The translations under genes and the position numbers were made by a program. A stretch of 45,313 nucleotides of DNA from a virus, in the IMG/VR virus record IMGVR_UViG_3300044527_000445, positions 1 to 45,313 of that record. One strand, 5' to 3'. Below, piece by piece: positions 8,152 through 35,161 of this stretch (positions within the stretch are counted from its first letter, which is position 1; each line of letters starts with the position of its first letter). The notes under the pieces were generated by a model that worked only from the letters and a program-made list of their open reading frames with translations, did not search any database and was not told where the DNA came from.

Positions 8152-9345
8152 ATGTACACTTTCAATGGATTCATAACAGAAGCACTTGACCTGCAAGGTC
8201 TAAATGCTCAACTGATGCACTTAGATCATCCTCATCAAAAGCACATCCTTTACAATAAAGCTGGTGCTCAGCTTGCTTTGTCTCTTGGCAAAAAGATGCA
8301 TAAGCTCTATCAGACTGGCGATTCAAAAGATATTATGGTATCAAGAAAGGTCGATGGTGGTGTTAGTGTGATTATTGCTAACAGGAATGGTGAAGTTTCA
8401 GTATCGACAAAGTCTGCTTTCAATAAAGATCCAAAGATCAATTTTACAGATGAAGACATCGATCGCAATCATGGAAAGACACCAGGGCTAGCTGATACAC
8501 TAAAACATGTTCTCAAGCATGCACAAGGACTAGTTCAAGATAATAAAGCTGTACAAGGTGATTTGATCTATACGCACAATCCAAATCGTCCAACGAATAT
8601 GGAACCACAAAGCAATGGAACAACTACTCACAATGTTCCAAATAGAATTGGAATCATGCATGCTGGTCCTCCTAAAGCAATGGGAATAGCGTTGCACACT
8701 GAATATGATGAACACGGTATTGCGCGTTCTGGAATCTCACCTAAGACAATTAGACATAAGAAAGAAGTCTTTGTTGCAGACACTTCTTTTAAGGTTAATC
8801 CTCAACACTATGATCCAAAGCAACAACAAGCAGTTGAAAAACATTTAGCTAACGCAGAGCAATTACTTAAGAGTTATCCTCAACACTTTGAAGTCCCAAG
8901 CGAACACAAAGATCATTTGCTAACCTATATGAATTCACTATCTGATGGATTAAAACCAGGTGAAATTCGCAAGCCAAATATCGATGACTATATACAACAT
9001 CTTGCTAACAAAGGGATGAAAGAGGCTGAAAAAGTAAAGACTGAGAAATCAAAGCAAGCTAAGATCGATAAGTTTGCAGAGATGGGTAAAGATGTAAGAA
9101 GAAATAGGCAGCAATTCAATACTCTTTTTAAATTCCATGACCATATGCATGGAGTTACTCAAGGCCTTATGTCAACTTTATCATTAAATAAAGCGTCTAA
9201 CTTCGTTACAGATATTGATGGCCAACAAAGTACAGATGAAGGAGTAGTCGTAGCTGATAAACGTACAGGACAAATTATGGGCAAGTACGTACCTCAAACT
9301 ATTGTTCATGAACTAAGACATAACCCAAGATTCAAGAGATCTTAG
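8152..9345 (+). CDS. Ligase-fold nucleotidyltransferase-like protein
   Basis: The 397-residue protein carries the motifs of covalent nucleotidyltransferases: motif I RKVDGG with Lys66 as likely nucleophile, a second strand with STKSAF, motif III-like VQGDLIY at 134-140, motif IV-like DEGVVV at 362-367 and motif V-like GKYV with Lys378. The order and spacing fit the DNA/RNA ligase superfamily, with a long insert between motifs III and IV. It recalls a phage family that I remember as DUF6267, an uncertain memory. The N terminus MYTFNGFITEA resembles T4 capsid-targeting peptides, so it may be packaged in the head. It could ligate or nick-seal DNA, or be an inactive relative. Confidence 0.72.
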   Translation: MYTFNGFITEALDLQGLNAQLMHLDHPHQKHILYNKAGAQLALSLGKKMHKLYQTGDSKDIMVSRKVDGGVSVIIANRNGEVSVSTKSAFNKDPKINFTDEDIDRNHGKTPGLADTLKHVLKHAQGLVQDNKAVQGDLIYTHNPNRPTNMEPQSNGTTTHNVPNRIGIMHAGPPKAMGIALHTEYDEHGIARSGISPKTIRHKKEVFVADTSFKVNPQHYDPKQQQAVEKHLANAEQLLKSYPQHFEVPSEHKDHLLTYMNSLSDGLKPGEIRKPNIDDYIQHLANKGMKEAEKVKTEKSKQAKIDKFAEMGKDVRRNRQQFNTLFKFHDHMHGVTQGLMSTLSLNKASNFVTDIDGQQSTDEGVVVADKRTGQIMGKYVPQTIVHELRHNPRFKRS

Positions 9346-31117: not shown

Positions 31118-33214
31118 ATGGACTTCAAATCTTTTATTGCCGAGGAAGAACAATCTAAGCATATAGTGTTTGCCTATATGCGTGGCAATCCACCAACATC
31201 AGGGCATGGTCTTGTAGCACATAAGGTGCGAGACACTGCACTCCAGCACAAAGCAGATCATGTGGTTGTTATGTCACATTCACATGAACCAAAAAAGAAT
31301 CCTTTACCCCCAGCTATCAAAGTCAAACATGCCAAAAGAATGTTTCCTGGCGTGAATATTGAGCATTCTTCGAAAGAAACACCAACATTCATGCACTATC
31401 TTGATAAGTTTCATAAGGCTGGATATAAAAAGGTAACGATGGTAGCTGGTTCTGATCGTGTTGATGAGTATAAAGAAAAAGTAGAAAAGTATAAGCATCC
31501 AGGAATGGATGTAGAAGTTCTATCAGCAGGACACAGAGACCCAGATGCTGAAGGAACTACTGGAATTTCAGGAACAAAACAAAGAGAGCATGCATCAAAT
31601 AACGATTTTAAATCATTCAGAAAAGGAATACCATATCATGTATCAGATGAACACGCAAAAGAACTTTTTCATGATTTGAGAAAAGGAATGAAGATAGAAG
31701 AACAAAAAACGATGCCAGAAATCCCTGATATTCGTGAATTATATATTGCCGGTAAAATATTTAAACTTGGTGAAGAAGTAACTACGTTTGATGGAAAGCA
31801 TGGAGTAATTGTTTACCGTGGAACTACCTATGTAACGATTCAAGAAGAAGACGGTTCTACATCTAAGCATTGGATTGCATCAGTAACAGAAAGTAAATTT
31901 TATAAAGATTCTGGTGCCTACAAAGAAAGACCATCATTTAAGAATTTTCCAGATGTTAATAAAAAGAATGCACCAAAAGGTGTTGCATCTGCAGCAGAAG
32001 TAAAGAAAAATCAAGATAAAGCTAAAGAAAAAGTTAAGAAAAATCCAGACGATCCATCACTGATGGAGCCATGGAGTACTGATAAGAACGTTAAAACTAA
32101 ACCTTCTATCTATACACTTAGGGCAAAAAGAATGTTTGGCGAACAACAAATTCCTTTCCTTTGCATGACAGATAAACAAAAACAGGAATTGAAGGAAGAG
32201 AATTCTCAAATTACTTTTGCAGGATATGCAACTAGACACTTTGATATGTGTCCAGGCGCTCAGGCTCTTTTTAATCAATTAACAAAAGATACTAGTTTAA
32301 ATACTGAAAAACTATTGCAAGCTATGCAAGCTACTGATCAATACTTAGGTATTGAGAAGAAAGCAATAAAGGATGGATTTGCTAACGAACAAATGATGCA
32401 TCTTTTTATGATGAAATTTGCAATTGCACATGACACGTTAAATCTTTTAAATGTAGACGATACAAAGTTAGAGTTCATGAGAGGTCATTTACAAAAGATG
32501 TCTGATCTTTCTATTCATAGAGACGGAAGTTTTGCAAATGAACCAATGGCACACGTTCCTACATTTACAGCAGGAGGATCAGAAGTGGAAGAAGATGTAG
32601 ATACATCAGATTATAAAGAAATAGAGACAGTTGGTCCTGGTGGTAAAGTGTTTAAGAGAAAAATAAGAAAAGGAAGAATTGTGACAGCAAAAGATGGAAC
32701 TCCTGATCAAATAGATGAAGCTGCTGAGAAAGGACTTGCTGCAAAGGCTAAAGCATCTGGTGTATCGCTTGGTACTCTAAAACAAGTGTATAGTAGAGGG
32801 ATGGCTGCCTGGAAAACATCTCACAGACCAGGAACTACTCCTCAACAATGGGGTATGGCAAGAGTTAATTCCTATATCACTAAAGGTAAAACTTATCATA
32901 CAGCTGATAAGGACTTAAGAGAAGCAAGTGAAACTATTTCTCCACTAAGCGATAAACAACCAAGAGATATCAATTTTAGTGATAGTAAAGATGCATGGCA
33001 CGGTGTTGATAAGACAATCGATGATCAAGGACACGAAGGTAAACCTGTTGGCTTAGTATCATTTAAGAGTTATGCTGGCAATCCCGAGACTCAAAAAGTA
33101 ACAGCAGCACACGGTGCAGAGCGTGAAAGTATTCATAGAGCTCAGGTTCAACAATTTACACAACCATCATCTGCATATAAATCAATGAGAAAAAGACAAC
33201 AACTGGAGCCCTAA
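31118..33214 (+). CDS. Nucleotidylyltransferase fused to phage virion domains
   Basis: The 698-residue protein begins MDFKSFIAEEEQ, like a T4 capsid-targeting peptide. Residues about 14-190 form a cytidylyltransferase-like domain with GNPPTSGH at 23-30 (the TxGH nucleotide site), TMVAGSDRVDEY, and ISGTKQRE near 149-156 (the ISSTxxR site). Such domains transfer nucleotides to phosphate groups, as in NMN adenylyltransferase. A small barrel follows (KIFKLGEEVTTFDGKHGVIV), then a helical domain (FAGYATRHFDMCPGAQALFN). Near residues 540-600 SGVSLGTLKQVYSRGMAAW and GTTPQQWGMARVNSYI resemble DUF5824. IDE-A and LRE-A sites fit prohead protease cleavage. The substrate is unknown. Confidence 0.78.
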   Translation: MDFKSFIAEEEQSKHIVFAYMRGNPPTSGHGLVAHKVRDTALQHKADHVVVMSHSHEPKKNPLPPAIKVKHAKRMFPGVNIEHSSKETPTFMHYLDKFHKAGYKKVTMVAGSDRVDEYKEKVEKYKHPGMDVEVLSAGHRDPDAEGTTGISGTKQREHASNNDFKSFRKGIPYHVSDEHAKELFHDLRKGMKIEEQKTMPEIPDIRELYIAGKIFKLGEEVTTFDGKHGVIVYRGTTYVTIQEEDGSTSKHWIASVTESKFYKDSGAYKERPSFKNFPDVNKKNAPKGVASAAEVKKNQDKAKEKVKKNPDDPSLMEPWSTDKNVKTKPSIYTLRAKRMFGEQQIPFLCMTDKQKQELKEENSQITFAGYATRHFDMCPGAQALFNQLTKDTSLNTEKLLQAMQATDQYLGIEKKAIKDGFANEQMMHLFMMKFAIAHDTLNLLNVDDTKLEFMRGHLQKMSDLSIHRDGSFANEPMAHVPTFTAGGSEVEEDVDTSDYKEIETVGPGGKVFKRKIRKGRIVTAKDGTPDQIDEAAEKGLAAKAKASGVSLGTLKQVYSRGMAAWKTSHRPGTTPQQWGMARVNSYITKGKTYHTADKDLREASETISPLSDKQPRDINFSDSKDAWHGVDKTIDDQGHEGKPVGLVSFKSYAGNPETQKVTAAHGAERESIHRAQVQQFTQPSSAYKSMRKRQQLEP

Positions 33215-33655
33215 ATGGATGAATTAGTACAATATTTAAGAGAGTGTTTGGCAAATACATTTGTCATGTATTTTAAGGCTCACCAATTTCATTGGAATGT
33301 TGAAGGTCCAAATTTTCCACAGTATCATAGCTTTTTAGGTGACCTCTATGAGGAGTTACATGGTGCTGTTGATCCAATTGCAGAACAAATTAGAACATTA
33401 GATCAGTATGCACCTACATCTATCGCTGCTATGCTTGCAATGAGTGCTGTAATGGAATCGCTATCAACTGCTCAACCAAGAGAAATGTTTGCATCATTAA
33501 ATACTGATAACGATATTGTATTACTAACTCTTACCAAAGCATATCAAAAAGCTGAAGAATTAGGTCATTTAGGAATATCAAACTTTTTACAAGATAGATT
33601 AACAGCACACGAAAAACATGGCTGGATGTTAAGGGCTACCATTAAAAATGCTTAA
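33215..33655 (+). CDS. Dps-like ferritin
   Basis: The 146-residue protein has the inter-subunit ferroxidase site of Dps: His26 in HWNVEGPNF, His38 (12 later), Asp53 and Glu57 in VDPIAEQI (15 and 19 after His38). These are exactly the E. coli spacings of H51, H63, D78 and E82; the D67 equivalent is Gly42, with Asp43 beside it. Dps forms 12-mers that oxidise and store iron and shield DNA. The lysine-rich N-terminal tail of E. coli Dps is absent. The gene sits between probable head proteins and overlaps the next by eight bases, so it may be packaged or protect DNA during infection. Confidence 0.9.
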   Translation: MDELVQYLRECLANTFVMYFKAHQFHWNVEGPNFPQYHSFLGDLYEELHGAVDPIAEQIRTLDQYAPTSIAAMLAMSAVMESLSTAQPREMFASLNTDNDIVLLTLTKAYQKAEELGHLGISNFLQDRLTAHEKHGWMLRATIKNA

Positions 33656-34130
33656 TTTTAAAACTTACCTTTCAGAAGAAATCTCTGACGATGAACTAGA
33701 GGATATGGCTAATCGCCTATCTTGGGAAGATATTGCTGATCTATATGCTCCAGAAGACTTTGAAGAAGAACTAGGTATCGAAGTCAAAGAAGAAGCTTTG
33801 GAAGAAAAAATTTCTGCATCTTCTAGAATGAAAAAACATATGGATTTTGCAAGATCAGCTGCAAAGCGCAACCTTGCAAGAAGCCTTAAGTTAAAACGTT
33901 CTTCTGATTTGAATACTCTGAAAAGTCGTGCTCATCATGCAGCAAAGCGTGCATTAATGAGCAGATTATTGAGAGGAAGAAGTAAGGATCAATTATCTGC
34001 TGCTGAAAAAGATAGAATTGAACAACAACTAAAATCAATGGAAGGAATAGTAAATAACCTTTCACAAAAAATGTTGCCAAGAATTAGAGAGATTGAACGT
34101 TCTAGATTATCAAGCAGAGCTAAGAAGTGA
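33648..34130 (+). CDS. Probable head-internal protein with basic C-terminal domain
   Basis: The 160-residue protein begins MLNFKTYLSEEIS, like a capsid-targeting peptide with a possible cut after LSE. An acidic stretch (YAPEDFEEELGIEVKEEALEE) follows. The C-terminal part is a strongly basic helix bundle (MKKHMDFARSAAKRNLARSL, AHHAAKRALMSRLLRGRSKD, KMLPRIREIERSRLSSRAKK). This basic pattern (ARxxAKRxLxxRLLRGKS ... LSAAEKDRIE) is common in T4-like marine phages next to structural genes. It could bind packaged DNA once the acidic part is removed; that is inference. Confidence 0.75.
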   Translation: MLNFKTYLSEEISDDELEDMANRLSWEDIADLYAPEDFEEELGIEVKEEALEEKISASSRMKKHMDFARSAAKRNLARSLKLKRSSDLNTLKSRAHHAAKRALMSRLLRGRSKDQLSAAEKDRIEQQLKSMEGIVNNLSQKMLPRIREIERSRLSSRAKK

Positions 34131-34552
34131 AGTTTAAACAATTTTCATTGCAAATAGATGAAGCAGCTGGTGGTTGTCCAGTTGCCACTCAAGATCTTGA
34201 CACCAATGTTAAGAACAGACAACATGCAATAGATGAATACTTGTATGGACCAGCTAATCCAAATGTTCCAGGAGACCATTGGAATAAATTAGCCAAGGTT
34301 TGGGGCATCTCTGTTGAAAATGCAAAAACAATGAGATGTGGCAATTGTGCAGCTTTTGATATCTCTGATAAAATGAGAGATTGTATTGCTAAAGGAATGG
34401 CTGGCAAAGAAGATAATGCAGATACAATGGCAACAGCAGAAAAAGCTGATCTTGGTTACTGCAATGTTCTCCATTTTAAATGTGCAGGAACAAGAAGTTG
34501 CTCACTTTGGTTAACAGACGGACCAATCGATAATAAAGATCGCACAATGTAA
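34127..34552 (+). CDS. Cysteine-rich, HiPIP-like conserved phage protein
   Basis: Translation starts at GTG 34127, overlapping the previous stop. The 141-residue protein begins (V)KFKQFSLQIDEAAGGCPVA, with a possible prohead protease cut after IDE. It has Cys17, Cys71, Cys74, Cys86, Cys112, Cys119 and Cys125. RCGNCAAFDIS, a later DC, and GYCNVLHFKC resemble the CxxC...C...C pattern of high-potential iron-sulfur proteins, though zinc binding is equally possible. I know similar proteins from T4-like and larger phages as hypothetical. A packaged metalloprotein beside a ferritin is a notable pair. Confidence 0.76.
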   Translation: MKFKQFSLQIDEAAGGCPVATQDLDTNVKNRQHAIDEYLYGPANPNVPGDHWNKLAKVWGISVENAKTMRCGNCAAFDISDKMRDCIAKGMAGKEDNADTMATAEKADLGYCNVLHFKCAGTRSCSLWLTDGPIDNKDRTM

Positions 34553-35161
34553 ATGTTTAGAATAGATAAGATCAATTTCTTAAAAGATCCTAAAATTGAT
34601 ATTATAATTGATGATGTGTTTTTTAAGGATCCAAGAGCTGTAAACTTTTTTGATAAAGATGGTTATGAGCTAACTAAATTGGAGCAAATATATTATAGAG
34701 CACAAGGGTTAGAAGTTACAAAGTATACAGCAGATCATCCAGGAGTATTTCAACCTTGGATCCACGTTGATCACCCATATCTAAGTATTGATCATAGTTG
34801 TGCAATGTATCGTTGTAATTTTGAGGATGATGCTAGAAAACAAATTGAGTGGCATTCTAAAAAATATCCTAGAGTGGGTTGGTTATTAACCTGCAAAAAG
34901 AAATGGGGTTTAGATTTAAATATAGATTATTGTGATGGTAATATAGCACTAGAAGTACTGCATCTAGAATGGGACAGTCCAAATCTAGAATTTATAGAAG
35001 AAGAAAGAATAAAAGCAGAAGCTTTAGTAAAAAACACTGATTGGGTAGATGCTGCTAAGCGAGTGTGGTCTTTAAGAGATGAATGGCAAAACCTTAAAGG
35101 TTGGTATGCTCAAGCTCATTGGAAAGCAACGTATTTTGGATTAGAAAGGCCCTGGTACTAA
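34553..35161 (+). CDS. Hypothetical protein, tryptophan-rich
   Basis: The 202-residue protein begins right after the previous stop. It is rich in aromatic residues (QPWIHVDHPYLSIDH, KYPRVGWLLTCKKKWGLDL, GWYAQAHWKATYFGLERPWY). The HVDHPY ... DHSC and HLEWDS segments hold several His/Asp residues that could bind metal. No known family is recognised. The cluster position suggests that it is made late with the head proteins. Function unknown. Confidence 0.72.
   Translation: MFRIDKINFLKDPKIDIIIDDVFFKDPRAVNFFDKDGYELTKLEQIYYRAQGLEVTKYTADHPGVFQPWIHVDHPYLSIDHSCAMYRCNFEDDARKQIEWHSKKYPRVGWLLTCKKKWGLDLNIDYCDGNIALEVLHLEWDSPNLEFIEEERIKAEALVKNTDWVDAAKRVWSLRDEWQNLKGWYAQAHWKATYFGLERPWY

Follow-up and report, generated by a model that had tools for sequence, protein, structure and literature searches.

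Phage Dps proteins are usually listed as odd stress genes, and the locus described here raises the question of what such a protein might do for a T4-like phage. The window, that is, the whole stretch of 45,313 nucleotides analysed (IMG/VR virus record IMGVR_UViG_3300044527_000445), carries dps in the following run of genes:

31118 to 33214, plus strand: NMNAT/cytidylyltransferase-like protein of 698 amino acids (phrog_3041, phrog_395) with a C-terminal DUF5824 and an N-terminus, MDFKSFIAEE, that resembles the T4 capsid-targeting sequence
33215 to 33655, plus strand: dps, Dps mini-ferritin of 146 amino acids with the ligands H26, H38, D53 and E57, Gly42 at the position of E. coli D67 and no N-terminal tail
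33648 to 34130, plus strand: protein of 160 amino acids whose N-terminus, MLNFKTYLSEE, has the exact T4 capsid-targeting spacing; weak match to phrog_23027
34127 to 34552, plus strand: cysteine-rich protein of 141 amino acids with a GTG start, of a family kept in the cassette of the window type; N-terminus weakly similar to capsid-targeting sequences
34553 to 35161, plus strand: protein of 202 amino acids, the last member of the conserved cassette

The dps reading frame is intact (146 codons); its ATG lies directly 3' of the stop codon (TAA) of the gene at 31118, GGAG is found six bases 5' of the ATG, and the end of dps is overlapped by 8 bases by the gene at 33648. The product matches Pfam Ferritin (4e-23), phrog_3636 ('DNA binding protein', 1.5e-32) and 52 solved sequences of the Dps family at E<=1e-3, so a chance match is excluded. 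An AlphaFold2 model of the single chain, built with 40 relatives in the alignment (pLDDT 96.6, pTM 0.91), predicts helices at residues 2-28, 34-61, 70-76, 88-116 and 119-143 in the order found in Dps; they form a four-helix bundle, and the short BC helix at 70-76 is typical of Dps. All top matches of this model in a Foldseek search of the PDB are of the Dps type. The best solved match by both sequence (4.7e-22) and fold (TM 0.93, rmsd 1.2) is Dps PA0962 of P. aeruginosa (8ff9), which shares the four ligands; however, the two proteins are only 34% identical. The preliminary description had assigned the phage to the T4-like group, and this is supported by the presence of UvsX and a DnaB-type helicase in the window and by the detection of T4 gp23 in all 13 large records that were searched for it; 12 of these also match the window Dps query. 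Judged by sequence and predicted fold, the product of 33215-33655 is a true, intact, tail-less Dps of a T4-like phage.

An alignment with Dps of E. coli K-12, taken from strain MG1655, places H26, H38, D53 and E57 on E. coli H51, H63, D78 and E82 with identical spacing (12, 27 and 31 residues), as had been described before, despite an overall identity of 20%. None of the four residues varies among 119 distinct phage proteins or among 78 relatives of the bacterial set, which includes one protein (L162) later recognised as belonging to a phage contig. The earlier statement that the ferroxidase ligands are complete goes too far, however. E. coli D67, an additional second-site iron ligand in Dps, aligns with Gly42, and the neighbouring D43 is out of register by one residue. 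Asp at this position is no strict feature of the family, as the near bacterial relatives carry Glu (39) or Met (36 of the 78), whereas Gly is present in 83/119 phage proteins; the second iron site therefore seems to be weaker or remodelled, not complete. Position 58, which adjoins the last ligand, is Arg in 77/78 bacterial relatives, Gln in the window protein and variable among the phages. Taken together, the invariance of the four ligands and the changes at positions 42 and 58 indicate that the primary iron site is retained, while the second site and the residues around it have diverged in a way specific to the lineage.

The second difference from E. coli Dps concerns its basic N-terminal tail. 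The preliminary description had noted that this DNA-binding tail is missing, and this is borne out: helix A of the window protein begins at residue 2, neither terminus carries a Lys/Arg-rich tail as in the DNA-binding subclass of Dps, and the protein has a net charge of -8 and a pI of 5.2. Across 157 phage loci, the N-terminal extension beyond the start of the window protein has a median of 1 and a maximum of 6 residues, compared with a median of 15 in bacterial relatives; start codons were chosen mechanically for this comparison, and the fused reading frames L033 and L082 were excluded. Relatives from Proteobacteria and Bdellovibrionota are acidic as well, but differ by their Glu or Met at position 42, Arg at position 58 and an N-terminus longer by about 15 residues. 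With no tail and such a charge, non-specific coating of DNA as by E. coli Dps is unlikely, and the earlier argument from the missing tail is supported in so far as oxidation of iron is the more probable function.

The placement of dps among other genes follows two settings. In the first, which recurs at 27 distinct loci, gp16 (PF11053/phrog_445) and gp17 (PF03237), the genes of the small and large subunits of the T4-type terminase, directly flank dps on either side, with gaps of a few bases; four further loci have one of the two. The second, to which the window belongs, is a cassette of the NMNAT-like gene, dps and the genes for the 160-residue, cysteine-rich and 202-residue proteins, which is held at Dps identities down to ~42-50%; in some members of this cassette, dps lies between two halves of a protein that is single in the window. 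An NMNAT-like gene is present within the fetched flank of 85/232 distinct loci; since the loci were gathered by similarity to chosen queries, these figures are counts and not prevalences. As a separate observation, many otherwise different proteins encoded just after dps (L004, L012, L016, L030, L036, L042 and others) share an N-terminus similar to M-x-YRSLEHKIRD(V/M), which may be another targeting signal.

Internal head proteins of T4 carry a capsid-targeting N-terminus of 10 residues, in which residues 4 and 7 serve targeting and residues 8 and 10 allow cleavage (PMC9026906). The spacing of these positions in IPI-III is shared by the genes flanking dps, whereas Dps itself lacks the signal. 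When a strict pattern, M-x(1-3)-[FY]-x2-[FYL]-[ILVM]-x-E, was applied family by family, it was found in 55/82 NMNAT-like genes and 12/40 genes of the 160-residue family, including the window genes at 31118 and 33648, compared with 64/1409 background reading frames. The Fisher values of 4e-46 and 3e-7, respectively, are too small, because the sequences are related and some matches of the 160-residue family sit in fused NMNAT-like reading frames. Only this stricter pattern was informative; an earlier, looser one was not enriched beside dps overall (17/114 upstream, 9/117 downstream, 76/499 in the background). The window Dps has no T4-type targeting peptide, and the strict pattern is found in 0/231 phage Dps reading frames, where about 10 would be expected at the background rate, although these sequences are related and not independent. 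Elsewhere in the window, positions 8152-9345 encode a protein of 397 amino acids with the N-terminus MYTFNGFITEA, which has the exact capsid-targeting spacing and is predicted to be head cargo.

Timing has to be judged from the same neighbours. No exact TATAAATA, the T4 late promoter, lies directly before the gene at 31118, where only AATAAATA is present 43 bases upstream. In the window as a whole, TATAAATA is found 5 times with 5.3 matches expected, which is not above chance, and the motif is therefore no proof of late timing; nevertheless, the head and packaging genes around dps suggest that it is expressed late.

The reading that we favour, with a probability of about 0.62, is that the window Dps is a late-made cytosolic Fe(II) oxidase, which protects the phage DNA during replication and packaging. 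Twelve subunits would probably form a hollow cage, with Fe(II) bound at interface sites composed of H26 and H38 of one subunit and D53 and E57 of the next, where it would be oxidised, preferably with H2O2, and the product stored. Produced late in infection from the head and packaging region of the genome, Dps would act in the host cytosol, a location for which the absence of the capsid-targeting N-terminus argues, and would remove free Fe(II) and peroxide while the iron proteins of the host break down. Hydroxyl radicals would thereby be kept from the DNA that is being replicated and packaged; a role in coating this DNA would not be expected, because the basic tail is absent. Two features count against this reading: the Gly at the D67 position, with which binding of iron at the second site may be weak, and the Gln in place of the Arg58 of bacterial relatives.

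A second, tentative reading takes Dps for a head protein, which enters the prohead with its cassette partners and protects the DNA in the capsid, is injected together with it, or both. The preliminary description had raised entry into the head alongside packaged neighbours, and the part concerning the neighbours stands: their targeting N-termini suggest that they are probably head cargo, the NMNAT-like/cytidylyltransferase family has repeatedly been detected in cyanophage virions, although the authors of that work caution about carry-over (PMC10665884), and the homologue in P-SSM2 starts with MKSFSQFLTE. For Dps, the absence of the signal from all of its reading frames makes packaging by the targeting route of its neighbours unlikely, and where dps adjoins gp16 and gp17, these are genes of the packaging motor and not head cargo. 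Fusions hint at a place for Dps inside the prohead, or close to it, in other phages. At one locus (L033, 4647-6380; duplicate L082), a Dps domain lies inside a cargo-like reading frame of 578 amino acids, preceded by an internal MKTFSKLQEA and followed by a C-terminal tail of 319 amino acids, and three BFVD models named 'Prohead protease' (A0A6J7WPK9, A0A6J7XDU5 and A0A6J7WIS1; TMq 0.87-0.94) are predicted to contain a Dps-like domain, as are several other BFVD proteins of 290-679 amino acids. However, the loci read yielded no fusion other than the former, and the lead from the prohead proteases consists of database names and models; no such fusion was found in two sets scanned from IMG/VR, which contain no Dps reading frame above ~190 amino acids. 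A wider form of the idea appears similarly doubtful: in a large uncultured T4-like group, Dps would be a part of head morphogenesis, tied to the terminase operon or the cargo cassette and fused in some lineages to cargo or prohead-protease proteins, and would guard or accompany the DNA at packaging, possibly entering the capsid and the next host as a preassembled scavenger of iron and peroxide.

It is less probable still that Dps hoards iron, storing it for iron enzymes of the phage or metal-containing parts of the virion, perhaps together with the cysteine-rich neighbour. Storage of iron in cages is in the nature of the Dps family, and the family of the protein at 34127-34552 recurs in the cassette of the window type; among its 70 relatives in IMG/VR, C71, C74, C112, C119 and C125 are invariant and C17 and C86 nearly so, which makes binding of a metal plausible. 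On the other hand, none of the cassette genes was recognised as coding for an iron-dependent phage enzyme, and the cysteine-rich family matches no known metal protein and is missing from most Dps loci. The iron-sulfur cluster that the preliminary description had put forward as a possibility finds no counterpart in a known Fe-S family: the protein has no Pfam match even at E 10, a profile of 19 sequences gave no convincing match in the PDB, and no PHROG matched consistently.

The origin of the gene bears on a last alternative. Bacterial Dps proteins closest to the window protein are 35-42% identical to it, and in a maximum-likelihood tree, 40 phage and 19 bacterial representatives are split on a 100/100 branch; the bacterial rows are the nearest matches to the window protein, so the tree does not fix the wider root, and support is poor for many of the inner branches among the phages. 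L159-L161 and L332 are not part of the final tree, as they either had very long branches or were tied to rows that did. Pairwise dN/dS of dps is 0.014/0.187 against L001 and 0.019/0.42 against L099 (~0.08 and ~0.05; two near-identical phages), which indicates purifying selection. Capture of a host gene without a lasting role, by recent transfer or as a passenger, is highly improbable and already contradicted: Dps is common in hosts and the best bacterial identity reaches 42%, but the split in the tree, the low dN/dS, ligands invariant over divergent phages and neighbours kept at Dps identities down to 42% do not fit the recent, decaying host fragment with degraded ligands in its relatives that the preliminary description had considered. 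A candidate host relative, L162 (CAIWHI010000271.1; 'Bacteroidetes', 46%), was rejected, since its dps is surrounded by phage structural genes; it is likely a contig of a phage that ended up in the bin of a Bacteroidetes MAG.

Judged by these comparisons, the window Dps belongs to a distinct, old and widespread phage lineage. The query matches at least 594 stretches in IMG/VR; in contrast, the lineage is nearly absent from annotated phage records, as only 17 matches at E<=1e-5 were found in 50,697 of them, the best being Synechococcus phage S-SRM01 (33% identity). Proteins of the S-SRM01 type form a second group of phage Dps (L312-L391; e.g. L343, 2556-3521), 33% identical to that of the window, and their genes lie near a PstS-like gene and sugar-nucleotide genes instead. 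Host-like Dps is also encoded in unannotated GenBank records of 'Staphylococcus/Listeria phage' (OR850242, OR845009, OR847788 and OR848339), several of them very short, which are possibly contaminating host DNA. In phages of the phiEco32 type (H107, H115, H120, H124 and H130), Dps-like genes are labelled 'integrase' in several records, a probable misannotation.

Phage Dps in general is already known. It was reported earlier in Lactobacillus phages (PMC6669764) and in gut 'Gratiaviridae' and 36 other gut phage genomes, for which control of iron and peroxide was proposed (PMC8008677). As far as the available portions of these reports go, the proteins share with the window Dps that they are phage-encoded and have a proposed role in iron and peroxide tolerance, but they belong to other phage groups, and the same portions mention no linkage to terminase or a cargo cassette. 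Likewise, no report of terminase placement or a cargo cassette of phage dps was found in the PMC open-access texts searched. What appears to be new is the fixed place of dps among late head and DNA-packaging genes, which may mean that viral DNA is guarded from iron damage while particles are being made. Uncultured viral contigs, at least several hundred of them, carry a Dps lineage that has kept its iron ligands, has no DNA-binding tail and is held beside the packaging motor or predicted head cargo, and it is this placement that allows a concrete test of whether lytic phages, in late infection or during packaging, exert active control over iron and over the oxidative damage that their own DNA suffers.
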